From assembly GCA_005776395.1 (NCBI GenBank), contig SXPJ01000017.1, forward strand, positions 1-59,454: a stretch of DNA of 59,454 bases. Reading direction: 5' to 3'. The translations under genes and the position numbers were made by a program. Numbering within the stretch: the first letter of the stretch is position 1; each line of letters opens with the position of its first letter. Source of the DNA: Bdellovibrionales bacterium (GTDB lineage: Bacteria; Bdellovibrionota; FAC87; UBA2466). This document shows positions 11,484 through 57,949 of the stretch, in pieces. Below the pieces are notes generated by a model that saw nothing but the letters and a program-made list of their open reading frames with translations, ran no database searches and was not told where the DNA came from.

Positions 11484-14400
11484 ATACCTCTTCGATATTC
11501 TCCACCTACTTCATAGAGCGCTTTGCTCATCTGCCCCAGTGAACATACCCGAGCACAATCCATGAGCTCTTCAAATATGTTTTTTCCATCTCTTGCGCAA
11601 TCTTTAAGTTTTTTAAGAGCCGCTAAGCTTTCATGCCCGTGAGAGTTCTGGAATTCTCTTAAGTTTGTGATCTGCTCATTTTTTTCGGCGTAGTTTGCTC
11701 GAGTGATTTCACTTGGAAAAAGCTGCCCCATCTCATGAGCTTTTGAATTTAAATAGGTATTAACTCCAATTATGGGAAGCTCTCCAGAGTGTTTCAAATG
11801 TTCATAGTAGAGAGATTCCTCTTGGATTTGAGAGCGTTGATAGTGCGTTTCCATGGCCCCTAGCACTCCACCACGAATTGAAATCTTTTCGAACTCCTTT
11901 AGAACAGCCTCTTCCACCAGATCAGTTAATTCATTAACGAAGAAACTTCCTTGGAGGGGATTTTCATTTTTTGCCCAGCCGAACTCTTTGGCAATAATAA
12001 GCTGAATAGCCATAGCCCTTCGAACACTCTCTTCAGTGGGCGTGGTGACCGCTTCATCGTCGGCATTGGTGTGGAGAGAGTTGCAGTTATCAAAGTAGGC
12101 CATAAGGGCTTGGAGTGAGGTGCGAATATCATTAAAAGAGATCTCTTGGGCGTGAAGTGAGCGGCCCGAGGTCTGTATATGATATTTGAGTTTCTGACTT
12201 CTATCATTGGCTCCATAACGCTCTTTCATAGCGATGGCCCAAATTCTTCGAGCTACGCGGCCAATCACTGTATATTCAGCATCTAAACTATTTGAGAAGA
12301 AAAAACTAAAATTGGGTGCGAAATCGTCAATCTTCATGCCACGAGACAAATAATATTCCGCAAATGTAAAACCATTGGCTAAAGTAAAGGCCAACTGAGA
12401 GATGGGATTCGCCCCGGCTTCAGCGATGTGGTATCCGCTGATACTGACCGAATAGTAGTTTCTAATGTTGTTATTAATAAAATACTGTTGAATATCTCCC
12501 ATCATGCGAAGGGCAAATTCAATTGAAAAGATACAGGTGTTCTGAGCCTGATCCTCTTTAAGAATATCGGCCTGAACAGTTCCTCTGACACTCTCTAAGG
12601 TTCGTCTCTTAATCTCTTGGGCCTCTTCTTTAGAGGGGGAGCGCTTGTTTGTGGTGGTAAATTTCTCTACCTGTTGATCTATCGCAGTATTGAAGTAGAA
12701 GGCCAAAAGAATGGGGGCTGGGCCGTTAATAGTCATGGAAACTGAAACGCTTGGATTACAGAGATCAAAACCTGCATAGAGTTTCTTAGCGTCATTTAAA
12801 GTGCAAACACTTACTCCGCTTTCGCCAATTTTACCGAAAATATCGGGGCGTTCATTAGGATCCTCTCCATAGAGAGTGACACTATCAAAAGCGGTAGAGA
12901 GTCGTTTGGCCTTTTCTCCTTGGCAGAGTAGGTGAAACCGTGTGTTGGTTCGGGTGGGGGTTCCTTCGCCTGCAAACATTCTTTTGGGATCTTCTTCGGT
13001 GCGTTTAAAAGGGAATACTCCTGCTGTGTAGGGAAAATAGCCCGGTAGATTTTCTCGAAAAAGGAAACTTACAAGATCGGATTGGCTTCGCAGTTTAGGA
13101 AGACTGATTTTTCGAATTTTATTGTGGCTTAGAGATTCGTGGTAGAGCGGAACTGAGAAGGTTTGGTTTCTTACCTGATAATGAAATTCATCTCCAGCAT
13201 ATTTCTCAGCGAGCTTGGGATAGTCTGTAAGCATTTGTTGAGTTGCAGGATTTAGATGAGAAGATTCTCTTTTTAAAGCTTCTTCGATCTCCTGTTTTAC
13301 AGAAGTCGAGAGGCTAGAATCCTGTAAAAGAGCTTGATACCCCTCTATCTTTTTAACTAGATCGGATTGGTGATCTGTAGTTTCATGATAGTGGCGAACT
13401 GTTTTTGCAATATCTAAGAGGTACTGAGTCCTGTCTTTGGGAACGATTGAATAGGAGAAGGGATTTAGCGTTGTAAGAGCGGTCTCTAAGGGAATCCGTT
13501 TGTTTGAGGCCTCTTTTATTTTTAAAAGATGAGTGAAGGCTGCATTAACTCCAGGATCGGAAAATCGTGAAGCGATAGTTCCGAAAATAGGATAGAGAGT
13601 AGGATCTAATTTTTCAAATTCTCGATGGTTTCTTCTAAACTGTTTTCGAACCTCATTTAAAGCATCGAGTGAGCCATTCTTTTCAAATTTATTAATAATA
13701 ACCATCGAGGCGTAATCGAGCATGTTAATTTTTTCAAGTTGGGTAGGGGCCCCAAACTCGGCAGTCATGATATAGAGATTAATATCGACGAGATCTACCA
13801 CAGAGGTATCGGCCTGCCCGATTCCACCCGTTTCAACAAAAATCCAATCAAATCCTGCAGCTTTGAAAAGGGCAATAGCTTCTTCAGTGGCTTTAGAGAT
13901 CGCAGCATGGGCTTGACGTGTCGCAAATGACCGCATGAAGGTTCTCTCACTTGAAAGACTATTCATTCTAAGTCTGTCGCCTAGAAGTGCTCCACCGGTT
14001 TTTCTTCGTGAGGGATCAATGGCTAAAACTGCAACTCGGGCTGAAGGATTATGTTCTAAGACTCTTAGAACCAGTTCATCGGTGAGGCTTGATTTACCAG
14101 CTCCGCCAGGGCCTGTGAGTCCTACTACGGTGGCTTTAGATGGGGCAGAGGCAATCTCTTTTCGTAATGAATCTAGATAAGTTTTCTTGCCTTCAAATTT
14201 AGAGTCTTCAAATCCTGATTCGCCGAGCTCAATACAGGTTAAGGCTTGCGCAAGAGATTTTGAACTCTTTGAAAAGTTTTTTAAATTATCCCAATCGAGA
14301 GAGTTAAAGGGATGCTCTTGGGCATGAGTTAACATGTGATCGATGATTCCCTGAAGCCCCATTTTTCGGCCGTCTTCGGGGGAATAAATTTTCTCTACAC

Positions 14401-33718: not shown

Positions 33719-34810
33719 TTATTGGGGAGTATCTCTTGGTATACTGGACCCATTCATCGACGTATTTTGTATTTCCTGACAAGACTCGGTATTAACCAAA
33801 ACAACTTTACCTAAATTTTTTCTCTCTTCAATATAGCGATGCGCTTCAACTGCTTGTTCAAAACTGAATTCTCGATCGACAATTGGATTAATATTTCCGT
33901 TTCGATAAAGATCTAAGATCTCATTCATCCAAAATCCAATCTTCGTAAAGGATCTTTTCCATAAAGTTGCTAAGTTAAACCCTGCTACCAAAATATTGGA
34001 TTGAGTTAATTTAAAAAGGTCGATTCCGTACCAAACACTGTTTCCCTCGGGTATAAAGGCTGGAACGCCAGTAGAAATCTCATCAAGACAACTCGAAAAG
34101 CCAAAGGCTATAAGTTTACCAAAGGGCGCCAATAGATTAAGTCCCCGCTCCCAACTTTGTCCCCCACTAGAATCAAAGATCACATCAAAGCCTCTTGACC
34201 CAGCTATTTGGGAAAGCTCAGTTTCGAAATTGGGAAGATTGGGATCGATTAAACATTCAAACCCACGATCTTTCAAAAAAGCATGTTTCAGATGGGAAGC
34301 AACTCCTACCGATTGTACCCCCATAAATCGACAGAGATCTTGAAGCGCTAACCCCACCCCGCCACCTGCCGAATAGATCAAAACACGGTCTCCTCGTCTC
34401 ATCCTTGCCATATCGATCGCCATACCATATGCAGTTAAATAATTAATGGGTAATGCGGCCCCTTGAGAAAAACTCATCCCATCAGGTAAAAGAAACACCT
34501 GTTCCTTAGGAACTCTGCATTGCGTTGCATACCCGCCAAAGAAAACAGGTGCTAAAACCGGTTGGCCAATCTCAAATCCTGAGACATCCGAACCTAAAGA
34601 TTGAACTATCCCACTAATTTCATAACCTACTACCATGGGAGGATTTGGCGCTTCTGGATACCTTCCCCTTCGAGCCAGGATATCTGAAAAATTCACCCCT
34701 GCGGTTTTTACAGAAATTAAAACCTCATTGGCTCTTGGTATCAAATCAGGGGAGTTTTTTATTTGTAAAACATCAGGCGCGCCTTTTCTAGTGATCCAAA
34801 TTTGTTTCAT
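33719..34810 (-). CDS. MDR-family NAD(P)H:quinone/enoyl reductase-like oxidoreductase
   Basis: A 363-residue zinc-independent medium-chain dehydrogenase/reductase. The GroES-like half has VKTAGVNFSDILARRGRYPEAP and MVVGYEISGIV. The cofactor half has IYSAGGGVGLALQDLCR, an NADP-type Gly motif. The closest known type is the VAT-1/quinone oxidoreductase group, and polyketide synthase enoyl reductases share this fold. It is divergent from the PKS genes across 48 bases, so it may act as a stand-alone enoyl reductase for them; that role is inference. Confidence 0.8.
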   Translation of the reverse strand: MKQIWITRKGAPDVLQIKNSPDLIPRANEVLISVKTAGVNFSDILARRGRYPEAPNPPMVVGYEISGIVQSLGSDVSGFEIGQPVLAPVFFGGYATQCRVPKEQVFLLPDGMSFSQGAALPINYLTAYGMAIDMARMRRGDRVLIYSAGGGVGLALQDLCRFMGVQSVGVASHLKHAFLKDRGFECLIDPNLPNFETELSQIAGSRGFDVIFDSSGGQSWERGLNLLAPFGKLIAFGFSSCLDEISTGVPAFIPEGNSVWYGIDLFKLTQSNILVAGFNLATLWKRSFTKIGFWMNEILDLYRNGNINPIVDREFSFEQAVEAHRYIEERKNLGKVVLVNTESCQEIQNTSMNGSSIPRDTPQ

Positions 34811-34858
34811 ATAATTAGTTAAATAAAATTATACACGTATTATAATTCAAAAAGGATT

Positions 34859-35974
34859 ATGAAAATTGATAAAAATACATGGCCGGCTCTTGAATTATTG
34901 AAGGCTATTAGCATTGCTTGTATGATTGTGCTCCATAGTTGGGGAATGGTTATTACCGAGGAGGATTTTAATGTTTACAAAGGCTCATGGTTCTTAATTT
35001 TTGGAAATATTCTCCATTTTGGATGCTTTTTTGATATTTGGATTCCAGCTATCGCTGGAGCTACGCTAAACCTCCAATTACTCAAACAAAACTATTCTTC
35101 GCCAACTCGATTAAGTGTTGTCAAAAACTCTTCCTATTGGGGATTCATTCTCTTGTTGTCAGGATGGGTATTTGAAATCTTCTTAAGAAACCCTTATCCA
35201 TTTCTATCCTTTAATCCACTCCATTTTATGGGGGGTTCATTCTTAATTGTTACTGTGCTTCTAGCTATTTCAAAGAATAATGATCTTACACTGTGGACTT
35301 TAGTTTTTTTTATCGTCGCACTTTTCAAGGATTCGATTACTAGCTTATTTCCATATGTTTTTCCTGAGACGTACGAAGAATTGTTTCGTCATGGGGCCTT
35401 AGAGGTCACTAAGTTCTATTTAGCTCAAATAACTTTTGGAATCTCTTCTCAAGGTTGGTCACTCATTCCATGGTTTTCTATCGTTCTTATTGGTTTTTCC
35501 TATTCAAATTATTACAGCAAAAACATTTTAACTCCAAAGACCCTGAAGGCGATGATATTTATCTCTCTTTTCATTGTTCTGTTCTTCTTGGCTTTTAAAT
35601 CGTCACGAAACTTTATTCAGAGCCAAACCCTACTTGATCAATATAGCGCTCTAAATATGCCTATCCCTCTTTTTATATCTTGTGCCAGCGGGTTTATTTT
35701 TATCTTATCTGCCTTAACCTATTTTCAGAAGAAATTAACTTTTGTTCATCAACCCTTCCCAAACGCATTTTCTCGAGGCTCCTTCTGGATCTTTTTTTTG
35801 CATTTTCCGTTGGGAAATGTCTTGTCTTCATTGTTTGAGTCTTACTCATTTGGCGTCCGCTGGATAGGTTTTCCTATCTTTATGTTAGCTTGGTGTTTTT
35901 TAATAGGATTAATCATTTTGGAACTTGGCAAAAAAAAGATTAATATTAAGCTATTAAAATTAACTCCATCATGA
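34859..35974 (+). CDS. Multi-span membrane acyltransferase-like protein
   Basis: A 371-residue protein with about ten membrane spans. The N-terminal ELLKAISIACMIVLHSWGMV, with the conserved His after the first span, and the later LHFMGGSFLIVTVLL recall the DUF1624/HGSNAT and acyltransferase-3 type membrane acyltransferases that move acyl groups across or onto membrane acceptors. The start is ATG 34859 after AAAGG. It ends in an ATGA overlap with the KS gene (35971-35974), so it is translationally coupled to the polyketide synthase and may offload its product. Confidence 0.65.
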   Translation: MKIDKNTWPALELLKAISIACMIVLHSWGMVITEEDFNVYKGSWFLIFGNILHFGCFFDIWIPAIAGATLNLQLLKQNYSSPTRLSVVKNSSYWGFILLLSGWVFEIFLRNPYPFLSFNPLHFMGGSFLIVTVLLAISKNNDLTLWTLVFFIVALFKDSITSLFPYVFPETYEELFRHGALEVTKFYLAQITFGISSQGWSLIPWFSIVLIGFSYSNYYSKNILTPKTLKAMIFISLFIVLFFLAFKSSRNFIQSQTLLDQYSALNMPIPLFISCASGFIFILSALTYFQKKLTFVHQPFPNAFSRGSFWIFFLHFPLGNVLSSLFESYSFGVRWIGFPIFMLAWCFLIGLIILELGKKKINIKLLKLTPS

Positions 35975-38001
35975 ATTCATTGGAGCCCATAGCCATCATC
36001 GGTGCAGGGTGTGTTTTACCTGGAGCCGCCAATATACAAGCCTTTTGGGATCTCCTTCTGCTCGAAAAAAAACAATTTAGCTTTCTAAATAATAAACGAT
36101 GGCCCGTTGATATCTTTTATGACCCACAATTTCAATCGAAGGATTCAACCTACTCCAATCGCGCAGCTATTATCGACGACTCACTGTTTTTTAATCCTGA
36201 TTTAGATCTACCACGAACTCACCAAATGTTTCTCAAAGCCCTAACGGAATCGATCCAAAACATAGGCAAAACTAGTTTTACTAAATTACGAGTAGGAACC
36301 ATTTTGGGGTGCATGAATCCAGGAGATGAATCTTCAAAAAGTTTACTCAAATCAAAACTGTCATCAACGAGAAACAAACTACTTCAAGCCTCATTCAGCA
36401 AAGACCTTTCCATCAATAATATCTTAGCTGATTGGGAGTCATGGGTGATTGATGCTTCAACGGATCCTCGAGTTCATTATCCAACCTCTATAGCAAAACT
36501 AGCTAACGACCATTTAGGAGTTCAGGGCTTGGCCTTCTGTGCCGACTCTGCTTGTGCGTCCTCGATGACAGCCATCGATCTGTCGTGCCAATTATTACAG
36601 AAACAGGAGATCGACATCGCGATATCTGGTGGAGTTGAGGGGAACTTAGGGCTAGAAACGTTCATACCCTTCAGCCATTTAGGGGTTTTGTCAAAAAACC
36701 ATTGCTTACCCTTTGACTCTAGAAGCGATGGTATTGTTCAAGGGGAGGGAGTTGTTGTTTTTGCTATGGAGAGACTATCTGATGCCCTATCTGCATCACA
36801 TCCGATTTTGGGAGTAATTGATAATATCACTAGTTCGAGTAACGGATCTAACGCCAGTCTGTTCTCTCCATCATTTGAAAATCAAAAAGAGATTTATGAA
36901 CAAATGAATCAAAATCTCGAGGAAAATTCTCCTCATTACATTGAAGCACATGGAACCGGAACCCCAGTCGGAGATTTCGCTGAACTAAAGGCTTTAGTGC
37001 AAGCCTTTAAACATTCCGCCTCTTCTATATACTTGGGCTCAGTCAAATCTCTTATTGGTCACACCAAAGGAGCCGCTGGTGCCGCTGGATTATTAAAATC
37101 CCTACTGATAATTCAAAACCGAACAATTCCCCCCTCAAGTTATTTTAAGCAATCATCCTACGACTCTCCAATCTGTCCCCTAACTATTAATACTTCACCA
37201 GTTAACTTTCCTCCTGGAACCACCCCGTTACAAATACGAATTAACTCCTCTGGTTTTGGAGGGGCCAATTACCATTTGTCGCTTAAAGAATTTGTTCCAG
37301 AGAAATCATCTTTCTTAGCAAAAAAATTCCCTGAGCCACAGTCAATATCCCTGGTTGCCTACTCGTCCGTTCCTTATTCTACACATATAACTATCGAAAA
37401 TAGTAGAACCTATAAGATCCCACCCAATATCTTGAAGAAATTAGATCCATCTCAAACACTAGGTATATTAGCTGTTACTGAAGCCCTTGAAAGAAGCTTG
37501 ATCGACCTAACCCAAATTCCAGCCAATCGGATAGGTGTTATCTCAGCGTCTCATACTCGAACAGCGAAAATTGAAGATCTGACGGAATCCATATATTTAA
37601 AAAAGTTAGAACCTTTATTTCAATCAGCCTCTCCCACCGATATTGAAAAATTTCATACCATGCGGACTAAACTGTTAACTTTTGATGAAACCATTTGTCA
37701 CAGTATTAACAGCATGACCAGCGGAAGAATGACACATGAATTTGGAACTCATGGAGTCAACTTTCATATAGATGCAGACTTTAATTCAAAAGAACATAGT
37801 TTTTTGATTGCTAAGAATTTTTTGGAGTTGGGCAAGTGGGATCTTGCAATTGTAGTCGCAATAAAAGAAACCCCTATGATAGACCCAATCCAGATTGAAC
37901 GACACGAAGTAAGCTGTTGGATGTTTTGTCTCAAGAAGTGGGCTCTCTCTCTCTCCTTACCAAACTTAGGTGAGTTAAATATTTCTGGAAGGTTTATGTG
38001 A
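35971..38001 (+). CDS. Ketosynthase with degenerate second KS (chain-length-factor-like), PKS/PUFA synthase type
   Basis: A 676-residue protein. The first domain (1-440) is an intact type I KS: active-site C195 (ADSACASSMT), H327 (EAHGTGTPVGD) and H364 (SVKSLIGHTKGAAG), plus NSSGFGGANYHLSL. Residues about 480-660 match the KS fold again (LGILAVTEALERS, SMTSGRMTHEFGTHGVNFHID), but the Cys position is Phe604 (DADFNS) and the His motifs are missing. That is the logic of a chain-length factor, as in PfaC-type PUFA synthases. It is coupled to the AT-ACP-KR-DH gene by a GTGA overlap. Confidence 0.85.
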   Translation: MNSLEPIAIIGAGCVLPGAANIQAFWDLLLLEKKQFSFLNNKRWPVDIFYDPQFQSKDSTYSNRAAIIDDSLFFNPDLDLPRTHQMFLKALTESIQNIGKTSFTKLRVGTILGCMNPGDESSKSLLKSKLSSTRNKLLQASFSKDLSINNILADWESWVIDASTDPRVHYPTSIAKLANDHLGVQGLAFCADSACASSMTAIDLSCQLLQKQEIDIAISGGVEGNLGLETFIPFSHLGVLSKNHCLPFDSRSDGIVQGEGVVVFAMERLSDALSASHPILGVIDNITSSSNGSNASLFSPSFENQKEIYEQMNQNLEENSPHYIEAHGTGTPVGDFAELKALVQAFKHSASSIYLGSVKSLIGHTKGAAGAAGLLKSLLIIQNRTIPPSSYFKQSSYDSPICPLTINTSPVNFPPGTTPLQIRINSSGFGGANYHLSLKEFVPEKSSFLAKKFPEPQSISLVAYSSVPYSTHITIENSRTYKIPPNILKKLDPSQTLGILAVTEALERSLIDLTQIPANRIGVISASHTRTAKIEDLTESIYLKKLEPLFQSASPTDIEKFHTMRTKLLTFDETICHSINSMTSGRMTHEFGTHGVNFHIDADFNSKEHSFLIAKNFLELGKWDLAIVVAIKETPMIDPIQIERHEVSCWMFCLKKWALSLSLPNLGELNISGRFM

Positions 38002-41000
38002 ACCTTCTAAACTCTAAAACAAAAGGGTATTTCTCTCAGTCACTAAACGCTTCGATCACCCCAGCTACATCTACAACAAATACACGAGTATCATTTGTTT
38101 ACTCAGGGCAAGGAGCTATGTTTCCTGGGATGGCAAAAGACTTCAAAAACGATCCGATTTTCAACCTCTATTTTAGAACGGCTGACCGTATTTGTGAGCG
38201 CCACAGGTTCCCTAAACCTTCACTATATGCTTTTACTCCTGAACTATTAATCCAAGAGCAACAAGAGCGCGTGGAAAGTATAGCGTTATTCACTTTCCAA
38301 ATAGCTCTGACTCATCGATTGATTCAGGTAGGTTTTTTTCCGGGGGCGACTACAGGCCATAGTTTCGGTGAATTTGCTGCTATCGTTGCTTCTGGTGCCC
38401 TTTCCTTTGAGGAAGGTTTAGAACAGGTTATTTTTCGGGAATCAATTCTTCCTGAACGGAATGCTCTGGGCTACATGATTGCAATTGCAGCCTCAGAATC
38501 TGAAGTTGAAACTTTTTTACGTTCCAACTCGTATGTTTTGTCTAATTTAAATACTTCCAACCAAACTGTAATCTCAGTTTCGTGGGATCAAGTTCCCGTT
38601 ATCGAATCTATTCTAGTAGAGCGAAATATAAAATTCAAAAGACTTCAAAGCCCTCAGCCTTTTCATTCGCCTTGGTTAGAAGAACAGGCCAACAAGATGT
38701 CTGATTGGGCTAAAAGTACGATTCTTCCGACATTTTTAAGAAGGAATTTCTTTTCGAGCGTTACTAAAGAGTGGTTTCCCATAGGGGTGGATATTAAAAC
38801 AAAGATTGAGGAGGCTCTGGGTCGGCAGCTTGTTGCTCCGGTAGATTTCAGAGTTCAAATAGATTCCCTTGCTAAAGAATTTACCACTTTTATTGAATTG
38901 GGTCCTCGACCTCTTTTGCAGTCATTAATTCAAAGCAATTTAAATAATGGGTCGCAAAAGGTCCTTTTTGCTCTAGATATTATCTCTCCAGTGGAGTTAC
39001 CTACTCATTCAAAAAAAATCGTAACCAATGAAGTATCACAGCCCATTCTTAGAATAATAAATTCGATCATTGCCAAGTTTACGGGTTACCAACTGAGTGA
39101 AATTAAAATTGAGGATCGACTCCAAGAGGATCTGGGAATTGACTCAATTAAGACGATGGAAATTTCACTGGAAATTTTAGATCAACTCAAACTCCCAAGA
39201 GAAGCTCTGAGCAAGCTACAAAGAGTAAAAACGGTGGGAGAGGTAGCTTACAGCGTCCAGCAAGTAAAAAGCTGTTCTGCTTCTTTTGCAGTCCGTACTT
39301 CACGGTCCCAATTTGAAGTTTTTCAGGAAACTTATATTCCTAAAAACATCTCGCCCTATTTTTCTGAAATGATTCAATCTCGTGATCCTCTTCTCATCGA
39401 TATTGATTTCCATTTAGATCTTGACCCACTTTTTAAATTAAAACCTGATTCACTCTGTGATATCCTGTTTCGATTTAGTGACAACAAGAAACAATCCAGT
39501 TTCCCTCCTGTTTTCTTTGAAAAGTTTAGACAACTTTGCTTTGAAAGAAAGATAAATAAAAACACTAGGCTCGCTCTTATCTCAATTCAATCTGCGCATT
39601 GTTTAGCTAGCCCTTTTTTAGCTTTTTTTAAGGCTCTAAAAAAAGAGCGACAAATACGATTTGTTACACATATTATTTTTGAGAATGGATACATTTCTGA
39701 AACAGAGCAGATCAGATTAGCTCACATCGAGATTGAGTTCGGGAGGGCAACTGATGTCAAATATGATTCCTCTTGTCAGCGGTTTGAACAGACTCTGGAG
39801 CGGACCGAAATAGGGCTAGGAAAAAAGCTTAGTGGAGGAACGCTAATAGCTATCGGTGGAGCTAAAGGGATCACCTTTGAAATACTCAAACACTTAGCGA
39901 AAAGTTCAAAGTGGAATCTTTACCTCATGGGAAGAAGCCCATCTTCAGATCCAGAAGTTGAAACCAATCTCAGAGAGTTAAACTTAATCTCACCTGAAGT
40001 CGTTTATCATAGGGGAGATGCGCTGAATAAAACCGATCTGGAATCGTTTTTTTACGTAGCCGAGAAAAATCATGGTCATATTGACCTCGTGATCCAGTCT
40101 GCCGGAATCGAGATAAGTCGAAGTTTTATCGAACGCTCTACGAAAGACGACTCACTCGAATTTCAAAGCAAAGTAAACACTACACAAAATACGATTGAGT
40201 GCATTGAAAAGTTTCAAGTTCCAGTGTCTGTTCTATTCTCCTCGGTCATTGCTCGATTTGGCAACTTGGGTCAGTCTATATATGCAGCTGCAAATGCTTG
40301 GGCCGAGCAACTCTGGAGAAATTCTTCTAAGCCTAGTTCTCGGATATCAATTCAATGGCCACCTTGGGATTCAGTGGGAATGACTAAAAAACATCTTGTC
40401 TCTGATATCTTAAAAGACACTGGACTATCTCTTCTTTCAAAAGATCAAGCTGGAGCTATGTTTGATCGAGCGCTATCTAACCCAAGCAATCTTGTTTTTT
40501 CCCAAGACGATAAATTCTTATACCAAGGGCCCCTCAATGATCTGGAGCCATTAGCAATTTCACTTACCGGTGTATTTCCTCTTCAATCCAAATTACAAAT
40601 CGAGTTTAGCTTGTCTCTAAGCCATTTTCCTGAACTTCAAGACCATTCGATCGAGGAGAAAAAGATTCTTCCTTTGGCTCTGACCGCCTGTTGGTTTCAA
40701 AAGTTGGGGGAAATATTTTTAAACGATAGATGCAGATTAGCTCAATTTAGATTGTTTCGCCGAGTTGAACTCACCGACTTACCTCAGGCTCTTTCTTTCC
40801 AAGTTAAGTTGCATGATCTCCAAGGGAGCAGTATCCAAATTGAGATTCGGCATGAAAACTCCTTGATTGCCGAAGGAGTCGTTGAAAAATTTCGAAAGTT
40901 TGACTCTCTCTTAGAGACTACGCCTCAACCTTCCCTAACTAGGGTGCCTAGACCTGCTTCACTTCGGCTTATCTCTAGTCACTTTTATAACCCAAAGCTT

Positions 41001-41375
41001 CTTTTCCATGGTCCCAACTTTCAGTTTTTAAGTGAGGTAGACTTTGATTCAAATGGCTTAGTACGAGCTACTTTAAATTTCCCCTGGAAAAGAGCCAAAA
41101 AAAGTTCCCCATGGTGGCCTGTAGTTTCCCTAATGGATGCTGGTCTTCAACTGTTAGGTCTTTGGGGGATTCATAAACATCTGTGGTATGGTCTGCCGGT
41201 AGGTTTTGCCTCGGCTAGCTTTTCAACTGATATCAATTTTGATGAACCCTTGGTGTGGGAGCTTCACCAACCTGAGATCTATGATGCTAACATGGTAGGC
41301 AATTTAACATTGAGAAATCTTCAAGGGATTTTTCAAGGCGAAATAAGAGTAGCTACATATCAAAAAATAAATTAG
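37998..41375 (+). CDS. Polyketide/PUFA synthase-like protein: AT-ACP-KR-DH
   Basis: A 1125-residue protein. The acyltransferase domain (about 30-330) has GHSFGEF with S122 and H223 (PQPFHSP). One acyl carrier (about 345-420) has phosphopantetheine Ser383 (DLGIDSIK). The ketoreductase (about 430-800) has IAIGGAKGI, S748/S749 and Y762 (GQSIYAAANA). A polyketide dehydratase double hot-dog (about 860-1120) has H883 (LQDHSIEEKKILP, the usual Gly replaced), HGPNFQ and D1047/Q1051 (LMDAGLQ). No thioesterase, methyltransferase or ER is present. The start is GTG, overlapping the KS gene by 4 bases. Its stop overlaps the convergent pilin-like gene by 4 bases. Confidence 0.88.
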   Translation: MNLLNSKTKGYFSQSLNASITPATSTTNTRVSFVYSGQGAMFPGMAKDFKNDPIFNLYFRTADRICERHRFPKPSLYAFTPELLIQEQQERVESIALFTFQIALTHRLIQVGFFPGATTGHSFGEFAAIVASGALSFEEGLEQVIFRESILPERNALGYMIAIAASESEVETFLRSNSYVLSNLNTSNQTVISVSWDQVPVIESILVERNIKFKRLQSPQPFHSPWLEEQANKMSDWAKSTILPTFLRRNFFSSVTKEWFPIGVDIKTKIEEALGRQLVAPVDFRVQIDSLAKEFTTFIELGPRPLLQSLIQSNLNNGSQKVLFALDIISPVELPTHSKKIVTNEVSQPILRIINSIIAKFTGYQLSEIKIEDRLQEDLGIDSIKTMEISLEILDQLKLPREALSKLQRVKTVGEVAYSVQQVKSCSASFAVRTSRSQFEVFQETYIPKNISPYFSEMIQSRDPLLIDIDFHLDLDPLFKLKPDSLCDILFRFSDNKKQSSFPPVFFEKFRQLCFERKINKNTRLALISIQSAHCLASPFLAFFKALKKERQIRFVTHIIFENGYISETEQIRLAHIEIEFGRATDVKYDSSCQRFEQTLERTEIGLGKKLSGGTLIAIGGAKGITFEILKHLAKSSKWNLYLMGRSPSSDPEVETNLRELNLISPEVVYHRGDALNKTDLESFFYVAEKNHGHIDLVIQSAGIEISRSFIERSTKDDSLEFQSKVNTTQNTIECIEKFQVPVSVLFSSVIARFGNLGQSIYAAANAWAEQLWRNSSKPSSRISIQWPPWDSVGMTKKHLVSDILKDTGLSLLSKDQAGAMFDRALSNPSNLVFSQDDKFLYQGPLNDLEPLAISLTGVFPLQSKLQIEFSLSLSHFPELQDHSIEEKKILPLALTACWFQKLGEIFLNDRCRLAQFRLFRRVELTDLPQALSFQVKLHDLQGSSIQIEIRHENSLIAEGVVEKFRKFDSLLETTPQPSLTRVPRPASLRLISSHFYNPKLLFHGPNFQFLSEVDFDSNGLVRATLNFPWKRAKKSSPWWPVVSLMDAGLQLLGLWGIHKHLWYGLPVGFASASFSTDINFDEPLVWELHQPEIYDANMVGNLTLRNLQGIFQGEIRVATYQKIN

Positions 41376-42112
41376 TTCTGAAAATACGGAGTATTCGTAT
41401 AAATAAATCCTTCATAAGTTAAATTAGCTTGCGTGTCTAAAGCACAAGTAGGATTCCAAGGAACATTCAAAGTGCTACTCACAGCTGCAATGTTAATAGG
41501 ATCATTCGGATCGGGGGGATTTCTTCCATCAACTGGGTCTGTACAAACAGCAAATGTTATTGTTATGTGATAACGTTCAGCAGCTATTTTTCTAATTGTC
41601 ACCTGTGGGTCACTTTCTGGTGTCAAAAAAGTTGTACCAAGATTTGCGTTCTTTCTGAAATAGAGAACTCTAAAAACACCTTTTGGGTAAGTTACCTGTT
41701 TAACTAGTACATTTGTGGTTGGGTAAAAGGTTTGGTAATTGCCCGGATGGGGCGTTTGGCAAGTTAAATTCGAGGGAACTAAATAAGCATCCAAAGTATT
41801 ACGATTACCATCATCAGGATCTATTGAGGCGCAACGCACTAAATTTCCAGCAATAATAGGTGGTTGAGGTGGGTTCTTTAAAGCTACCGCATCTGGGTGT
41901 TTAGTAGCTAGTAGAAGGTCGGTCAAAATTTTAGTTACCACTTGCTCCAAAATAAGATTGTGACGATTTTCCTGAGTAACTCGCCGTTGAATATTTTTTT
42001 GACTTACGACTCCGTTAAGTCCCCAACTCATGAGTGTTAGACTTGAGATAGATATAGCAAACGATAGTAAAATCATCGCAGCCCCTCTAGCTTTTAGAAC
42101 CTGTTTTTTCAT
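41372..42112 (-). CDS. PilX-like pilus assembly protein
   Basis: A 246-residue protein with a single N-terminal hydrophobic helix (ARGAAMILLSFAISISSLTLMSWG) resembling the PilX N-terminal region RGAAL..., followed by a periplasmic domain of unknown fold with five Cys. It lacks a standard G^FTLxE cleavage site, as PilX-type proteins can. It is divergent from the two prepilin genes at 42193-44078, which supports a role in the same pilus or secretion assembly. Function beyond that is not visible. Confidence 0.55.
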   Translation of the reverse strand: MKKQVLKARGAAMILLSFAISISSLTLMSWGLNGVVSQKNIQRRVTQENRHNLILEQVVTKILTDLLLATKHPDAVALKNPPQPPIIAGNLVRCASIDPDDGNRNTLDAYLVPSNLTCQTPHPGNYQTFYPTTNVLVKQVTYPKGVFRVLYFRKNANLGTTFLTPESDPQVTIRKIAAERYHITITFAVCTDPVDGRNPPDPNDPINIAAVSSTLNVPWNPTCALDTQANLTYEGFIYTNTPYFQN

Positions 42113-42192
42113 TTAACTAAGCTTAGTTTGATTTTGAGTTTCTTGATATATTATTATTATAATAGAATAATCTATTTTTACTTCCAAAATCT

Positions 42193-43404
42193 ATGACCTC
42201 TAAACTTAAGAACTCAGGCTTTACCCTTTTAGAAAATATGATAGCAATTACAGTGTTAGTCATAGGTATTACGGCTGCTTACCAGATTCGGATGCAGACT
42301 ATTACACAATTAAAATCCTCAATGATTAATACCGAAGCCTTAAGCGAACATCGAACCCTAAATACTCTTATTCAAAGCATACCACTTTCTGAAGCACAAT
42401 CGCTGCTACCTCAAGGCAATCCAATAGATTCTCGTTTTAACTGTCTTCCTCATCCCTGGGGACTGTTTCAAAGAAATGGAGATGGATTAGATCAATGCAG
42501 GCCCAACCCTGCAGTTACAACAGTATTTAATGCTAATGATTGGAATGCCTTATCAGAAGAATACTACTTATTTGCCCGAGGAATACAAAATGGCTCTAAT
42601 TTGAATTCAACTCTTGATTCAAACAATTTCAATCTTACTAAAAATAAATTGCAGAATTTAGGATGTCTTAATTGTCATGGGGGAGGGACAACTAATCCCA
42701 ACTTTAACAATTTTACTCAACTCACTGCTGCTAACCAATCCTTTGTCACTTTATTTGGTCTGGGTTCAGGATTGGGAAGACGACTTTTACGGCCAAATAT
42801 GAATTTTCCCAGTTTAAGGTCCAGCCCGAGTTTAAAATTTCTTAATCACAACGTACAGTTTCTTTCAAGTTTCCGAGGTATTAACAGCAATACTCCAACT
42901 CCAAATGCTTTAGAATGGAATTGCGCAGTAGGGCCAACTCCCTTTCAAAGAATAGTCAATGGTCACACATTCAATCCCCCCTGTTATGGAGGAATTTTAG
43001 GGGGCATAGAACATAGATGTGAACGTACTGTAAACAAGAAAAAGAAAATAAACGTCAGAGGTTGTAACTGGAAAACATATTATGGATGTGTTTACTCACC
43101 TTCATCGTTTGATTTTTGCACTAAAGGAGTTGTCAGACCTGGATCCCAAGTTTTTCCAGCTAGCCCTGGCTCGATACAACAATCAAGGTGCCAAACTCGA
43201 TATCCACCTGCTACATGGGTTGTTTCAACTTCTACAGGTGCTAGAACCTATCTTAAAGCTTACCGATATTGGGAATGCTGGGATCCAAATACTTATATGG
43301 CCGACGAAAAACGCTGGGATGTTTCTTATCAGATTACAACAACTTGGGCAAATGACTTGGATGAAATTATTAGAAATATTGTCACCACAGGAGCTCTTAA
43401 ATGA
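42193..43404 (+). CDS. Prepilin-class (type IV pilin/pseudopilin) protein with CxxCH motif
   Basis: A 403-residue protein. The prepilin cleavage motif KNSG^FTLLENMIAI is at 6-19 (Glu at +5), followed by a hydrophobic helix. It is unusually long for a pilin. Residues 158-162 (GCLNCHGGG) form a canonical c-type haem CxxCH motif, with a Met (RPNMNF, about 203) as a possible axial ligand. Many other Cys lie in the C-terminal half (CERTVNKKKKINVRGC, YGCVY). It could be a minor pilin such as PilV with an added cytochrome-like domain, or the motif could be structural Cys. The stop overlaps the next pilin gene by 4 bases. Confidence 0.75.
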   Translation: MTSKLKNSGFTLLENMIAITVLVIGITAAYQIRMQTITQLKSSMINTEALSEHRTLNTLIQSIPLSEAQSLLPQGNPIDSRFNCLPHPWGLFQRNGDGLDQCRPNPAVTTVFNANDWNALSEEYYLFARGIQNGSNLNSTLDSNNFNLTKNKLQNLGCLNCHGGGTTNPNFNNFTQLTAANQSFVTLFGLGSGLGRRLLRPNMNFPSLRSSPSLKFLNHNVQFLSSFRGINSNTPTPNALEWNCAVGPTPFQRIVNGHTFNPPCYGGILGGIEHRCERTVNKKKKINVRGCNWKTYYGCVYSPSSFDFCTKGVVRPGSQVFPASPGSIQQSRCQTRYPPATWVVSTSTGARTYLKAYRYWECWDPNTYMADEKRWDVSYQITTTWANDLDEIIRNIVTTGALK

Positions 43405-44078
43405 AATTGTTTTATAGAGGAGTAACTTTAATTGAGCTAGTTACAGCTATGGTGATTGCCTCTACTGTTCTTTTGTTTTTATCAAATACTCTAACTGGAC
43501 AACTTGGCATTCGAGAAGTCTGGTCTGATGTGAAACTGAGTGAAGCTGGGGGCACCACATGGGAACTCAATAAGTTAATTAAAAATTTTTTTAGTCGAGC
43601 AACAGATTTTAATCTAACGCAAAATGGTTCTGACATCGCTGTGGTTTTGAGAAGTGACCTACGCCCATGTAATACGTTTAACCCAGAAACTAGCTCAACA
43701 AACCTATCAAGAATCAGCTTTTTATGTTGTGCTCCAAATGTTTCAATGACGGCAATCCTCCCAGGTGGGGGTAATGTTAATTTAACTTCTGCTTGTAGGG
43801 AAAACTGGGGATTGACTTTGAACGAGTGGAACTCAAGTAATAATTTAGTCACTTCGCGATGTTTTCAAAATATCACCGCTTTGAATGTTTTCAGTCTAGG
43901 CCCGCAGCCTTTATTTAACAATCTCAATGCTATTAATTTTGATCTCACTGCTGAAACCCATTTCATCAACGGCCAGCCCTCTGGTCGAAAGAGACTTTTT
44001 TCCAATTTTGCTGTCTCTGTTGGCAATTCACCTAATTCTCCCATAGTCACTTGCTCAAGACTTGGACAGTTCAACTAA
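43401..44078 (+). CDS. Prepilin-class minor pilin (PilW-like)
   Basis: A 225-residue protein with a prepilin site RG^VTLIELVTAMVIAS (cleavage after G7, Glu at +5 = E12), then a hydrophobic helix. The C-terminal domain has four or five Cys (LRPCNTFN, FLCCAPN, TSRCFQN). It starts in a 4-base overlap with the CxxCH pilin gene, so the two are coupled and probably belong to one minor-pilin tip complex. The exact minor-pilin class is uncertain. Confidence 0.75.
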   Translation: MKLFYRGVTLIELVTAMVIASTVLLFLSNTLTGQLGIREVWSDVKLSEAGGTTWELNKLIKNFFSRATDFNLTQNGSDIAVVLRSDLRPCNTFNPETSSTNLSRISFLCCAPNVSMTAILPGGGNVNLTSACRENWGLTLNEWNSSNNLVTSRCFQNITALNVFSLGPQPLFNNLNAINFDLTAETHFINGQPSGRKRLFSNFAVSVGNSPNSPIVTCSRLGQFN

Positions 44079-44491: not shown

Positions 44492-45514
44492 ATGGCGCAA
44501 CTTCCTAAGATCAGCATCGTAGTCTCGACCTATAATGGCAGGCGGTGGCTTCCTGAAACCTTACAAAGTCTTTTAAATCAATCTTACCCTGCAGAGAAAA
44601 TGGAGATTGTAGTCATTGATGATGGCTCTACTGACTCTAGTGCAGAATTAGCAAAATCGATATTAGAAAAAGGGCAAGTTAGCTACTTAGTTAAATCGAC
44701 ATCCAATCAGAGAATTAATCGAGCTAATAATGTAGGTTGGAAAGCTGCCTCTGGGGATTGGGTTCTGTTTTTGGGGCATGATGATCTCTTAGCTCCAGAG
44801 AAACTGCAGCTCTCATTTAATTCAGGAGTCTTCTATGGCCCTGAGACGGCAGCCGTTTATTCAGATTGGCAAAGGTACTCGTTCATTTCGGGAAGATGGG
44901 ATAGATCGGGACGGGTTATACGGGCTGAACTTCCAAATCTCGCTCCCTATCCAATGATTAGGGGGCTATTTAAGGGAATCTATATTCACGGAAGTGCTAT
45001 TTTTTTTTGTAGGAGCCGGCTTGATAAAATTGGGGGCTTTGACGAGTTAATTAATTCCGCTGAGGATGCAAATATTCAGATTCGAATTGATATGGCTGGA
45101 GGAGTGTTTCGGTATGTTCCTTCAGCTTTTCCACTCTCATTTTGGAGAAATACCCCAGGGTCATGGTCTAAAGTGGGTCGATATGAATTAGCAGTTGGAG
45201 TTATTCATAACATGAAAATAATTGAAGGCCTTATGCGAGAAAAGAATCTTTTGAATCAGGAAGGGATTGACTGGCTTGCCTCTCAATATTTTTCCTTGGG
45301 GCGCAATTTATCTCTTGGAGATTGGAATGAATTTTTAGAGTTAGCTAATCATCTTAATAAACTAAAGCCCAATTATATACCTCCTAGGGCCTCAATAGCT
45401 TTTATCCCTTATGTTATTTATAGGTTAATGGGTTACAAAGCTTTATTTGTCATCGGAGTAACTTATCGATGGCTCCGAGGATGGATAATGAATCTCATGA
45501 TGAGGAGAGCGTAG
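44492..45514 (+). CDS. GT2-family glycosyltransferase
   Basis: A 340-residue GT-A enzyme. ISIVVSTYNGRRWLPETLQSLL and VVIDDGSTDSS bind the nucleotide sugar, FLGHDDLLAPEKL gives the DxD-type metal site, and IHGSAIFFCRSRLDKIGGFDE is the acceptor-side motif. The C-terminal helix (RLMGYKALFVIGVTYRWLRGW) could associate with membrane. It is likely to add a sugar to a surface polysaccharide. The start ATG 44492 has no clear SD. It ends in a TAGTG overlap with a broken GT4 gene. A decayed duplicate lies just upstream. Confidence 0.85.
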   Translation: MAQLPKISIVVSTYNGRRWLPETLQSLLNQSYPAEKMEIVVIDDGSTDSSAELAKSILEKGQVSYLVKSTSNQRINRANNVGWKAASGDWVLFLGHDDLLAPEKLQLSFNSGVFYGPETAAVYSDWQRYSFISGRWDRSGRVIRAELPNLAPYPMIRGLFKGIYIHGSAIFFCRSRLDKIGGFDELINSAEDANIQIRIDMAGGVFRYVPSAFPLSFWRNTPGSWSKVGRYELAVGVIHNMKIIEGLMREKNLLNQEGIDWLASQYFSLGRNLSLGDWNEFLELANHLNKLKPNYIPPRASIAFIPYVIYRLMGYKALFVIGVTYRWLRGWIMNLMMRRA

Positions 45515-46592
45515 TGCAATTCGGTTTATACTTCCCTGCGCTAGCAAACACCCCATTGGTGGATTTAGAGTGGTCTATGAACACGCTAACTTTTTAGTTC
45601 GAAGAGGGCACGAAGTATCTATTCTTCATCCGGCAGGAATAAAAACAGATTCTTTAAGAGATGAGATTAGGTTTTTTAAGCACTTTCTGTACCGGTCACT
45701 TTTCAAAACAAATCGATCGGTCCCCTGGTTCAAGTTAGATCCGAGGGTTGAATTATTAACGGCTCATTCCCTAAAATGAGCACCCAAATTTGAGGCCGAA
45801 GCAGTAATAGCGACTGCTTGGCAAACAGCAAATTATGTGGCAAGCCTTCCCCCTTCAATCGGAAAAAAATTCTATTTGATCCAAGGATATGAGATCTGGG
45901 ATGGACCAGAAATGGAAGTTATTCAGACATGGAAACTTCCACTCAATAAGATTGTTATATCTAAATGGCTTTGGAACATTGCAAATGAAATGAAAGAAAC
46001 TGCAGCGCTAATTCCTTTTGGATTAAACCAGGATGAATTTGGTATAGACCAATTGCCTGTAAATCGTCAGATTTCAGTTGTTGGAATGCTCTATCACTGT
46101 ATGGAAGTCAAAGGAACCGAAGATGGATTAAGAGCTCTCTACTATGTCAAAGAGCAAAAGCCTGAGTTGCAGGTGCGTTTATTTGGTGTATTTGCTCCTC
46201 CCAAACTTCCGTCTTGGATTAGCTATGATCAACTTCCAAGCAGAAAACGGCTAAGGGAGCTATATAATGAGTGTCAAATTTTTTTAGCCCCCAGTCATTC
46301 AGAAGGTTTATCATTTACCACTCTAGAAAGTATGTTATGTGGGGCCTCTCTCGTAGCAACCAATATTGGCGGCCATATTGATTATGCTCTCGATCGAAAG
46401 ACCGCATTATTAGCTCCACCCAAGAACCCAATCGCTCTTAGTGAATGCGTTATTCAGTTATTAAATCAACCAGAACTCAGATTGAAACTCGCATCAGAAG
46501 GGGAAAAAATAGCTGCAGAATTTACCTTGGAATCGGCAGGACTTAAACTAGAACAGTTGCTTTTAAAAAGTATTACCAGTAATGGCCCTTAG
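45514..46592 (+). pseudogene. GT4-family glycosyltransferase gene with frameshift and internal stop
   Basis: Pieces read as one GT4 enzyme. GTG 45514 gives FGLYFPALANTP in one frame. IGGFRVVYEHANFLVRRGHEV then continues in another frame after about 45555, and the C-terminal half (HSEGLSFTTLESMLCGASLVATNIGG, the E-x7-E motif) is intact. A TGA at 45777-45779 interrupts the second frame in place. One frameshift plus one nonsense codon mean no full enzyme is made unless recoded; the separate fragments of 69 and 251 codons would be incomplete. Confidence 0.8.
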
Positions 46593-54711: not shown

Positions 54712-55644
54712 GTGAACATTGAACCCCAAAAAACAGAAACATTAGAACTTACCGATGTCACCTTACGAGATGGTCTTCAAGCGGAAAGCAAAATCATTCC
54801 CTTGGAATTTAAAATTGAGCTATTGGAGCTTCTTGCTCAATGCCAGTTTTCTCGGCTAGAGATTACTAGTTTTGTAAACCCTAAATGGATTCCTCAGCTC
54901 AGTGATTCTGAAAAACTTTGTGAGGCTTGGTTTAAAAGGAAATCGACGCAAGAAACGATGGCCTTTGTTCCCAATGCTAAGGGCTGTGAAAGACTTTTAA
55001 AGTTCCCTATCCCATGGATCAGTTGTTTTGTGGCTGTCAGTAGTACTTTTAATCAGAAGAATGTTAATGCTTCAATCAATGAGACGATTCAAGAGGTGGA
55101 ATTTATTATCTCAACTGCAAAGGCAGCCAAAAGAAAAGTGCGGGTTTATGTTTCGACTGTTTGGGGATGCCCTTATGAAGGAGATCTTACTCCTGAAAAA
55201 CTGGACTCTCTCTTTCAGCGACTTTCTGTGCTTGATGCCGAAGAGATTGCTCTTAGTGATACCCTTGGAGTGGCAACTCCTGAATCGATTAAACGAGTTT
55301 TAAAACAGAGCTCGAAATATTTTCCAATCTCAAAAACCTCTTTGCATCTTCATAACACTTACGGGTTTGCCTTGGCCAATATTCAGGCGGCTTATGATTT
55401 TGGAATTCGAAGTTTTGATGGCACTCTTGGAGGGGTTGGGGGGTGTCCCTATGCTAAAGGGGCGACTGGAAATGCGGCCTCTGATGATATTATAAATTTA
55501 TTTTATCGACAGCAGAAGGTTTCATCTTTCCCAAAGAAAGAGATTGAAAAGACATTAATATTTTTAAGAGATAAGTTGGGGCTATCGCTCCATAGCTCAT
55601 TGGCCAAAATTCAAGAAATGGGAGGGACCTGGTATGGGATCTAG
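54712..55644 (+). CDS. mvaB: Hydroxymethylglutaryl-CoA lyase
   Basis: A 310-residue TIM-barrel lyase splitting HMG-CoA into acetoacetate and acetyl-CoA, the last step of leucine degradation. TLRDGLQAE gives the R19/D20 metal and substrate site, LHLHNTYG gives His ligands, and C245 lies in GGVGGCPYAKGATGN, the HMGL signature. The start is GTG 54712, 6 bases after the biotinyl gene stop. It overlaps the enoyl-CoA hydratase gene by 11 bases. Confidence 0.9.
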   Translation: MNIEPQKTETLELTDVTLRDGLQAESKIIPLEFKIELLELLAQCQFSRLEITSFVNPKWIPQLSDSEKLCEAWFKRKSTQETMAFVPNAKGCERLLKFPIPWISCFVAVSSTFNQKNVNASINETIQEVEFIISTAKAAKRKVRVYVSTVWGCPYEGDLTPEKLDSLFQRLSVLDAEEIALSDTLGVATPESIKRVLKQSSKYFPISKTSLHLHNTYGFALANIQAAYDFGIRSFDGTLGGVGGCPYAKGATGNAASDDIINLFYRQQKVSSFPKKEIEKTLIFLRDKLGLSLHSSLAKIQEMGGTWYGI

Positions 55645-56416
55645 TGAATTATTAGTTCGTCGTGAAGCAGGTATAGTTATCGCTACACTTAATCGTCCCG
55701 AGAAAATGAATGCTCTCAATAAAGAGATTTTTGCTCAGCTCAAAAATCTTATTGAGGTAATTGAGCATGATTCAACTGCAAGGGTTCTTATTATAACGGG
55801 TTCGGGAGAGAAGGCCTTTTGTGTCGGAGCGGATCTTAAAGAGCGTCAGGGAATGAATGAAAAGGATATTCTCGTTCGAATGGATTTTGTTAAAGGGATC
55901 TATTTAAAACTCGAGCGATTAAAAATTCCAACCATTGCAGCTATTAATGGAACGGCATTGGGGGGAGGTTTGGAGTTAGCTCTTGCCTGTGATTTGAGAG
56001 TGGCCCCAGAAAAGGCTGTCTTTGGATTGCCCGAGGTAGAGCTTGCGATTATGCCAGGAAATGGGGGAACTCAGAGGTTGTCTAGGCTTATTGGTCTTGC
56101 GAAGGCTCTCGAACTTATTTTACTCGCAAAAAAAATCTCAGCTGAAGAGGCTTTGGCGTTAAATCTCGTGAATACTGTGGTTCCACCTTCTCAGGTTTTA
56201 TCTAAAACTATGGAGTTGGCGAGTAAAATGCTGGAATCGGGTCCTATAGGAATCAGGCAGGCTAAATTGGCAGTTCGGGGTGGTTTTGAGAGAAGCTATG
56301 AACATGCTTTAGATTTTGAAGCGGAGTGCTACAAGTCGGTGCTCTATTCAAAAGATAGAATCGAGGGCATTAAAGCTTTTATTGAAAAAAGAAAGCCCGT
56401 GTATCGAGGAGAGTAG
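55634..56416 (+). CDS. Enoyl-CoA hydratase/isomerase, probable methylglutaconyl-CoA hydratase
   Basis: A 260-residue crotonase-fold protein. The oxyanion-hole segments are KAFCVGADLKERQGMN and AINGTALGGGLELALACDLRVA, and the acid/base Glu pair region is EVELAIMPGNGGTQRLSR. Context (HMG-CoA lyase and carboxyltransferase neighbours) points to 3-methylglutaconyl-CoA hydration in leucine breakdown, though sequence alone cannot separate that from other enoyl-CoA hydratases. It overlaps the previous gene by 11 bases and is followed 12 bases later by the carboxylase gene. Confidence 0.87.
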   Translation: MGSSELLVRREAGIVIATLNRPEKMNALNKEIFAQLKNLIEVIEHDSTARVLIITGSGEKAFCVGADLKERQGMNEKDILVRMDFVKGIYLKLERLKIPTIAAINGTALGGGLELALACDLRVAPEKAVFGLPEVELAIMPGNGGTQRLSRLIGLAKALELILLAKKISAEEALALNLVNTVVPPSQVLSKTMELASKMLESGPIGIRQAKLAVRGGFERSYEHALDFEAECYKSVLYSKDRIEGIKAFIEKRKPVYRGE

Positions 56417-56428
56417 GGAGAGTTAAAG

Positions 56429-57949
56429 ATGAGTCATGATTTAAATCCAATACGAGAACGCATTCTAAAGGGCGGAGCCCAAAAATATCACGATAAAAAT
56501 ACAGAGAGCAAAAAGCTTTTTGCAAGAACAAGAATTTCGCTTCTCTGTGATAAAGGCAGTTTTGTGGAGGATGGTCTTTATGCAAATTGCGAGGATATTG
56601 AGCTCCCTGCAGATGGTGTGGTGACGGGGCTAGGAAAGATTAATGGAAGACCCATAGCTCTTATGGCTAACGATTCAACCGTGAAGGCCGGCTCCTGGGG
56701 GGCTAGGACGGTTGAGAAGATTGTGCGCATTCAGGAGGTTGCAGAAAAATTACAGATTCCTCTTTTCTATCTCGTCGATAGCGCGGGAGCTAGAATTACT
56801 GATCAGGTGGAAATGTTTCCGGGAAGGCGAGGGGCTGGAAGAATTTTTAGAAATCAGGCGCGATTTTCAGGCATGATTCCTCAGATCTGCCTATTATTTG
56901 GCCCCTCAGCCGCAGGAGGAGCTTATATCCCGGCCTTTTGTGATGTGCTTTTTATGGTGGATGGCAATGCGAGTATGTATTTAGGTTCACCCAGAATGGC
57001 TGAAGCGGTCATCGGAGAGAAGGTTTCTCTTGAGGATATGGGCGGAGCGCGAATGCATTGTTCAGTAAGCGGTTGTGGTGATTTTCTCTGTGCAACTGAT
57101 GAAGAGGCGATTGAAAAGGCAAAATATTATTTTTCCTATCTTCCTCAGAATAGAAACTCCTCTCTTCCTGTCGAGAAGGCTCAAAATCCAGAACGGCCGC
57201 CTCAGGATTTAAAGGGGCTTATTCCCGAGGCCGATGCTCGTGCCTATGACATGAAACAGGTGATTAAAACCATTATAGATAAAGATTCTTTCTGTGAAGT
57301 GAAGGAGCTGTATGCAAAAGAGGTTATCACTGGGTTTGCAAGGCTGGATGGTAAAACGGTGGCTATCATCGCAAACCAGCCTGGAGTCAAAGGGGGGGTT
57401 CTATTTGTCGACTCCTCAGATAAAGCGGCAAGATTTATTCAAATTGCCTCGGCCTATTCCATCCCTTTGCTTTTTATCGCCGATGTTCCTGGCTTTATGA
57501 TCGGGTCTAAAGTGGAGAAAGAGGGAATGATCCGAAGTGGAGCTAAATTGATCTATGCGATGTCGAATGCCGATGTGACTAAGATCTCTCTAATTGTAAG
57601 AAAGGCCTATGGAGCTGGACTTTATGCGATGTGTGGGCCTGCTTTTGATTGTGATGCCACTCTTGCATTGCCCTCAGCTAAAATTGCTGTGATGGGGCCA
57701 GAGCCAGCTATTAACGCTGTTTATTACAATAAGATGGCTGAGTTGACTCCCGAGGCGAAGAAATCCTTTGTAGCTGAAAAGATCAAGGAGTATGAAGCCG
57801 ATGTTGAGATCTACAAACTAGCGAGTGAACTTATTGTGGATCAGATGGTGGATTTTTTAGAGGTGAGAACTGAACTCATCCAACGGTTTAGCTATTACGA
57901 GCTAAGAAAGAATCGAGAGGCCAGAAAGCCGGGCATCATGCCGATGTAA
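56429..57949 (+). CDS. Acyl-CoA carboxylase carboxyltransferase (beta) subunit
   Basis: A 506-residue biotin-dependent carboxyltransferase. The N-terminal half has LFARTRISLLCDKGSF, YLVDSAGARITDQVEMFPG and PSAAGGAYIPAFCD. The C-terminal half has FARLDGKTVAIIANQPGVKGG, LFIADVPGFMIGSKVEKEGM and MGPEPAINAVYYNKM. Operon context suggests methylcrotonyl-CoA carboxylase, but propionyl-CoA carboxylase cannot be excluded. It has an AGAGTTAAAG ribosome-binding region. It works with the 70-residue biotinyl protein and an off-window biotin carboxylase. Confidence 0.88.
   Translation: MSHDLNPIRERILKGGAQKYHDKNTESKKLFARTRISLLCDKGSFVEDGLYANCEDIELPADGVVTGLGKINGRPIALMANDSTVKAGSWGARTVEKIVRIQEVAEKLQIPLFYLVDSAGARITDQVEMFPGRRGAGRIFRNQARFSGMIPQICLLFGPSAAGGAYIPAFCDVLFMVDGNASMYLGSPRMAEAVIGEKVSLEDMGGARMHCSVSGCGDFLCATDEEAIEKAKYYFSYLPQNRNSSLPVEKAQNPERPPQDLKGLIPEADARAYDMKQVIKTIIDKDSFCEVKELYAKEVITGFARLDGKTVAIIANQPGVKGGVLFVDSSDKAARFIQIASAYSIPLLFIADVPGFMIGSKVEKEGMIRSGAKLIYAMSNADVTKISLIVRKAYGAGLYAMCGPAFDCDATLALPSAKIAVMGPEPAINAVYYNKMAELTPEAKKSFVAEKIKEYEADVEIYKLASELIVDQMVDFLEVRTELIQRFSYYELRKNREARKPGIMPM

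Follow-up and report, generated by a model that had tools for sequence, protein, structure and literature searches.

A candidate specialised-lipid synthase cassette with a half chain-length factor and a membrane acyltransferase in Bdellovibrionota

Bdellovibrionota form a largely uncultured, partly predatory phylum whose lipids are little known. The window analysed here, a stretch of 59,454 nucleotides from a 2.76 Mb Bdellovibrionales genome assembled in 106 contigs, carries at 33719-41375 four adjacent ORFs for an MDR reductase, a multi-span acyltransferase, a ketosynthase (KS) protein and an AT-ACP-KR-DH protein. What would such a set make, and how would the product leave an assembly line whose four genes contain no thioesterase domain?

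Gene order, domains and predicted folds

The ORFs lie where an earlier note, made from the sequence alone, had placed them, with the MDR gene divergent from the acyltransferase gene and 48 bases between the two. The 4-base overlaps it described as joining the last three genes are present as well, ATGA between the acyltransferase and KS genes (35971-35974) and GTGA between the KS and AT-ACP-KR-DH genes (37998-38001). The features are as follows.

33719-34810, minus strand: MDR, 363 aa, VAT-1-like medium-chain dehydrogenase/reductase with a proposed role in reducing double bonds in trans (Pfam ADH_N, ADH_zinc_N)
34859-35974, plus strand: acyltransferase, 371 aa, multi-span protein assigned to the TmAT superfamily
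35971-38001, plus strand: KS protein, 676 aa
35983-37320, plus strand: ketosynthase domain (Pfam ketoacyl-synt N and C, 4e-51 and 2e-27)
37345-37977, plus strand: half chain-length factor (half-CLF), N-terminal half of the KS fold with the Cys replaced (DADFNS), from hhalign and AF2 secondary structure
37998-41375, plus strand: AT-ACP-KR-DH protein, 1125 aa
38085-38948, plus strand: AT domain, malonyl-type, GHSFGE and PFHS (Acyl_transf_1, 6e-24)
39042-39257, plus strand: single ACP domain, GIDSI (PP-binding, 6e-5)
39834-40487, plus strand: KR domain (KR, 2e-25) with SSVIARFGNLGQSIY motif
40602-41327, plus strand: DH domain, double-hotdog, DHx8P and DxxxQ (PS-DH 1.7e-4, PKS_DH_N 5e-3)

Pfam searches and motifs agree with the domains and catalytic residues claimed earlier, with the reservations that the acyltransferase has no match at the default level and that both DH scores (PS-DH and PKS_DH_N) fall below the curated Pfam cut-offs. 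The KS keeps C195, H327 and H364, in motifs invariant among six aligned proteins of the window's family; Y762 of the KR is present, as are H883 and D1047 with Q1051 of the DH. The ACP serine and the catalytic His of the DH are each invariant in 13 homologues. The single ACP (one PP-binding stretch) and the missing thioesterase had both been read correctly.

The KS-CLF assignment has to be narrowed, since the KS is complete and the CLF is an N-terminal half only: residues ~459-669 of the protein align to its own KS residues 80-288 and then stop (hhalign, probability 97%, E 4.9e-11). Alignment of 16 homologues from the phylum, two of them fused to the PKS, showed this half-CLF in every one. An AF2 model of the KS-half-CLF protein (pLDDT 73, pTM 0.83) has as its best solved-structure match the KS-CLF of PfaC (6riw; E 1.7e-31, TM 0.77, with ordinary KS-ATs at about 0.5), roughly a millionfold better in E-value than the rest, which bears out the kinship with PfaA/PfaC proposed earlier. 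A half-CLF kept across six families lends itself well to testing what is required of a chain-length factor.

As for the acyltransferase, PF01757 matches five of five members (best 3e-9) and reaches E 1.1 only for the window protein itself. Its AF2 model (pLDDT 81, pTM 0.82) retrieves human HGSNAT first and GWT1 second in Foldseek, other folds being far weaker, and its first transmembrane segment carries E12xxK15-x10-H26, three residues invariant in five aligned proteins of the window's family. The motif of the superfamily is DxxR-x10-H, of which ExxK-x10-H is a conservative form (PMC12423673). Because the relatives' PF01757 matches, the motif and the predicted fold point the same way, we assign the protein to the TmAT superfamily (HGSNAT/GWT1 fold) despite the Pfam result, in line with the membrane acyltransferase of the earlier note. 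Fold and motif fix the superfamily and not the acyl donor; TmAT enzymes of known function take acyl-CoA, often acetyl-CoA, and not acyl-ACP (PMC12423673, PMC9558356).

The divergent gene encodes an MDR domain with an NADPH-type fold, by Pfam and by comparison with solved families. VAT-1 homologues rank first among the latter (3e-69), and PKS ER domains (CurK, JamJ), which score lower, are not its closest relatives.

Conservation of the core and exchange of its redox partner

The check for the same gene order in related genomes, proposed with the original observation, turned out positive: to the extent that their contigs cover the locus, five relatives from two genera (G001, G002, G005, G010, G012) share the four-gene order, and in G013 the cluster is split by contig ends. 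It is missing from two same-genus genomes and from five others of the window's family. The whole order is kept in other genomes at 35-76% identity, so that the arrangement is not a matter of chance, and the four proteins are co-inherited: the relatives rank broadly alike for each of them, G001 being closest each time, a parallel divergence that fits joint inheritance. These relatives are metagenome-assembled genomes, several of them from lakes, and their record titles suggest a freshwater setting for these Bdellovibrionota.

Across the phylum, AT-ACP-KR-DH homologues were found in 17 of 369 genomes, from six families, and a KS-half-CLF gene adjoins them in nearly all core-bearing genomes. A TmAT-like membrane protein gene adjoins most cores, with HMM support in G014, G194, G067 and G217 and assignment by position or motif only for the other neighbours outside the window's family; one of the two core copies in G129 has no such gene beside it. 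The genomes compared are fragmented, and E-values for neighbours in other families are modest. Beyond the phylum, the analysis covered GTDB representatives, by a single scan with a specific pattern, and a plasmid collection, whose searches returned generic KS and FabD matches only.

Several of these loci vary in layout. Single-gene fusions KS-half-CLF-AT-ACP-KR-DH occur in L062 (6916-12393, 1825 aa) and L066 (967-6498, 1843 aa), and in L062 (genome G111) a 4Fe-4S membrane protein (5947-6882) adjoins the fused synthase. The core order is reversed in G267 (L060: PKS, KS, membrane protein), where a gene resembling FAD monooxygenases (11529-13115) lies two genes after the core. UnbV_ASPIC (FG-GAP) genes stand beside related cassettes of other families in L063, L066, L067 and L068, with an RnfD-like gene adjoining in the two loci tested for it (L066, L067); UnbV occurs in 143 of the 369 phylum genomes, but those of the window's family have none.

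Is the MDR a part of the system? The earlier note had asked whether it groups with oxidoreductases that lack PKS neighbours, and whether the KS and AT proteins are conserved without the acyltransferase and MDR genes; both questions received divided answers. VAT-1-like MDRs are found in 85 of 369 phylum genomes, and the nearest non-cluster copies have no PKS neighbours at the inspected loci; yet the cluster MDRs form a group of their own within the VAT-1-like family, and in the window's family an orthologue is present in all seven genomes with the cluster and in none of the seven without it. Outside that family, the KS and AT-ACP-KR-DH proteins are kept without the MDR, although a candidate membrane acyltransferase mostly accompanies them. 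The MDR as a bystander, a quinone oxidoreductase of the VAT-1-like type placed divergently beside the cluster by accident, would account for the wide distribution and for the cores that do without it. We consider this improbable, and the MDR as an unrelated neighbour disfavoured, given its strict co-occurrence with the cluster, its identical divergent position in the cluster-bearing family genomes wherever contigs allow, and its degree of conservation, the highest among the four proteins. Since both checks split, we regard the MDR as a clade-specific redox partner and not as an essential part of the synthase.

In another clade the corresponding place appears to be taken by a CrtISO/RetSat-like FAD oxidoreductase, whose gene adjoins six cores (the L068 copy judged by the look of its N-terminus only). 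A tree of the KS proteins recovers the MDR-bearing family as a clade with 100/100 support and groups the six loci that carry the FAD gene at 98/96, which indicates that the redox partner varies from clade to clade. One core with two unrelated redox enzymes makes reduction in trans testable by swapping partners.

Proposed function and competing readings

We propose, with about even confidence, that the locus is a specialised-lipid synthase cassette combining an iterative lipid or polyene synthase, a clade-specific trans-acting redox partner and membrane acyl transfer. The KS-half-CLF and AT-ACP-KR-DH proteins would work as one split, iterative type I synthase, whose single ACP would be activated by the one Sfp-type PPTase of the genome (245 aa, encoded elsewhere) and loaded with malonyl units by the AT. 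The KS would condense the units and the KR and DH process every round. No ER domain is encoded in the synthase for enoyl reduction in cis, so that, with KR and DH acting each round, the synthase alone should give a polyene or polyunsaturated chain. Loading, condensation, ketoreduction and dehydration are thus encoded; that every step for iterative reduction is present, as stated earlier on condition that the MDR acts in trans, has to stay a conjecture, and the core occurs without the MDR outside the family. In the window's family the VAT-1-like MDR may supply reduction in trans, using NADPH and acting either on enoyl intermediates or on the completed chain; in the other clade the CrtISO/RetSat-like flavoprotein could stand in its stead. 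The TmAT-fold protein would then pass on an acyl group, in the simplest case the completed chain, to an acceptor at the membrane's outer face, a release step suggested by the lack of a thioesterase domain in the four genes. If it does move the synthase's own chain, this would be thioesterase-free release directly across the membrane. Separate type II FAS genes (plsX, fabH, fabD, fabG) are found elsewhere in the genome. Against this proposal weigh the acyl-CoA use of known TmAT enzymes, an MDR nearer to VAT-1 than to PKS ER domains, the cores without MDR outside the family, the low Pfam scores of the DH and the assignment of several TmAT-like neighbours in other families by position and motif only.

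Alternatively, the synthase may make a conjugated polyene or pigment that the MDR tailors late, with the TmAT protein attaching a small acyl group such as acetyl, taken from acetyl-CoA, to the exported product. GWT1, of the same superfamily and second in the fold ranking, uses a long acyl chain, which speaks against this alternative, as does the finding of no aryl or other starter gene and no export gene conserved with the cluster. The missing ER domain fits this alternative, the partner in the other clade belongs to a family acting on polyenes, and known AT3 enzymes mostly transfer acetyl from acetyl-CoA (PMC9558356). On balance we find it possible but rather unlikely.

Two named enzyme classes deserve consideration alongside these. 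That the locus derives from a true PUFA synthase (Pfa) and makes EPA/DHA-like fatty acids is suggested by the PfaC fold match and by hits to the curated PfaA model TIGR02813, but these score 172 and 122 bits, far below the 1010 cut-off. The tandem ACPs of PfaA and a full CLF are both wanting, no PfaB is found, and the PfaD-type enoyl reductase model TIGR02814 has no match in the genome while control genomes respond; on ACP number, CLF, PfaD and TIGR02813 score we rejected membership and hold this origin very improbable. Still less credible is an enediyne-type (PKSE-like) polyene system, raised by the domain order KS-(half-CLF)-AT-ACP-KR-DH and by the UnbV_ASPIC and RnfD-like neighbours of four related cassettes in other families. 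The AT-ACP-KR-DH protein ends after the DH, without a Pfam match to the fused C-terminal PPTase of PKSE enzymes, the cluster has no thioesterase domain, and PF07593 finds no UnbV in the window's genome although the same model finds it in 143 others of the phylum; we therefore set the PKSE assignment aside for the window. The cassette reading given at the outset of this section is the one carried forward.

Past the cluster, the conserved block extends as far as 44078 and takes in three pilin-like genes (41372-44078).

41372-42112, minus strand: pilin-like gene 1, PilX-like N-terminus, convergent with the PKS gene
42193-43404, plus strand: pilin-like gene 2, putative haem-c pilin (N_methyl, 1e-6) with invariant CxxCH (C158, C161, H162)
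43401-44078, plus strand: pilin-like gene 3, with adjacent homologues in L018, L020, L021 and L022

All three are adjacent in G005, G010, G012 and G013 (loci L018, L020, L021 and L022), and G002 (L017) has a fragment of the first at a contig edge. The CxxCH-bearing gene occurs in five of the seven cluster-bearing genomes, the contig ending there in the other two, and a search of the eight genomes of the order that lack the four-gene cluster matched it in none. Its CxxCH is kept in 5/5 homologues whose identity to the window protein is no more than 29-36%, and the product may thus hold haem within a pilin-like protein. Such a link has a precedent in Myxococcus xanthus, where a cytochrome c is reported to work with minor pilins and PilY1 (PMC8833165). 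We can picture a seven-gene unit in which the half-CLF lipid or polyene synthase, its reductase and the TmAT protein are coupled to haem-bearing pilin assembly, the TmAT protein acylating the pilins or their glycans with a polyketide-derived chain to yield a lipid-decorated, redox-active surface fibre, but regard this as a long shot. The glycosyltransferase genes downstream (44492-46592), considered as makers of the acceptor, showed no sign of conservation beside the relatives' clusters and were therefore left out of the unit. Further along the window, HMGL-like, enoyl-CoA hydratase and carboxyl transferase genes lie in a row (54712-57949) resembling a leucine/isovalerate degradation set.

Comparison with known systems

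The broad definition of a secondary lipid synthase given by Shulse and Allen asks for a consistent cluster with no fewer than one KS, one ACP and one KR, all of which are present here. The cluster is thus a variant of that broad kind, the tie of its KS to validated pathways being structural likeness to PfaC only. The surveys, in the portions at hand, cover 20 types of secondary lipid synthase (PMC3098273) and 63 hybrid clusters (PMC13291983), and within those portions of text none has this layout, in keeping with the earlier view that it was undescribed.

The Pfa synthases (PfaA-D; type A/B, PMC3098273) share with this locus the type I KS, AT, ACP, KR and DH parts, the PfaC-like KS-CLF fold, a discrete trans reductase and a separately encoded PPTase. 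They differ in that here one ACP replaces the four to six of Pfa, the CLF is halved, a single DH didomain is fused behind the KR, an MDR stands in for PfaD, PfaB is absent and a TmAT membrane protein is added. The one-ACP secondary lipid synthases (ars of Azotobacter, type P, PMC3098273) also consist of iterative lipid-making FAS/PKS domains, whereas the present cluster lacks type III PKS partners, has another domain order and adds a membrane acyltransferase and an MDR. The heterocyst glycolipid synthase (hgl, type F, PMC3098273, PMC11804610), which makes an envelope lipid, likewise has split KS/CLF/AT/KR/DH parts; its CLF is full-length and fused to AT, and it includes a thioester reductase and a glycosyltransferase, features of which none is conserved with this cluster.

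The acyltransferase resembles the AT3/HGSNAT/GWT1 proteins of the TmAT superfamily (PMC12423673) in predicted fold, in the (D/E)xx(K/R)-x10-H motif and in a conserved aromatic residue of TM9, and departs from them in a sequence below the Pfam cut-offs and in a gene placed inside a lipid synthase operon. The locus would add the architecture KS-half-CLF + AT-ACP-KR-DH + TmAT to the iterative lipid synthases.
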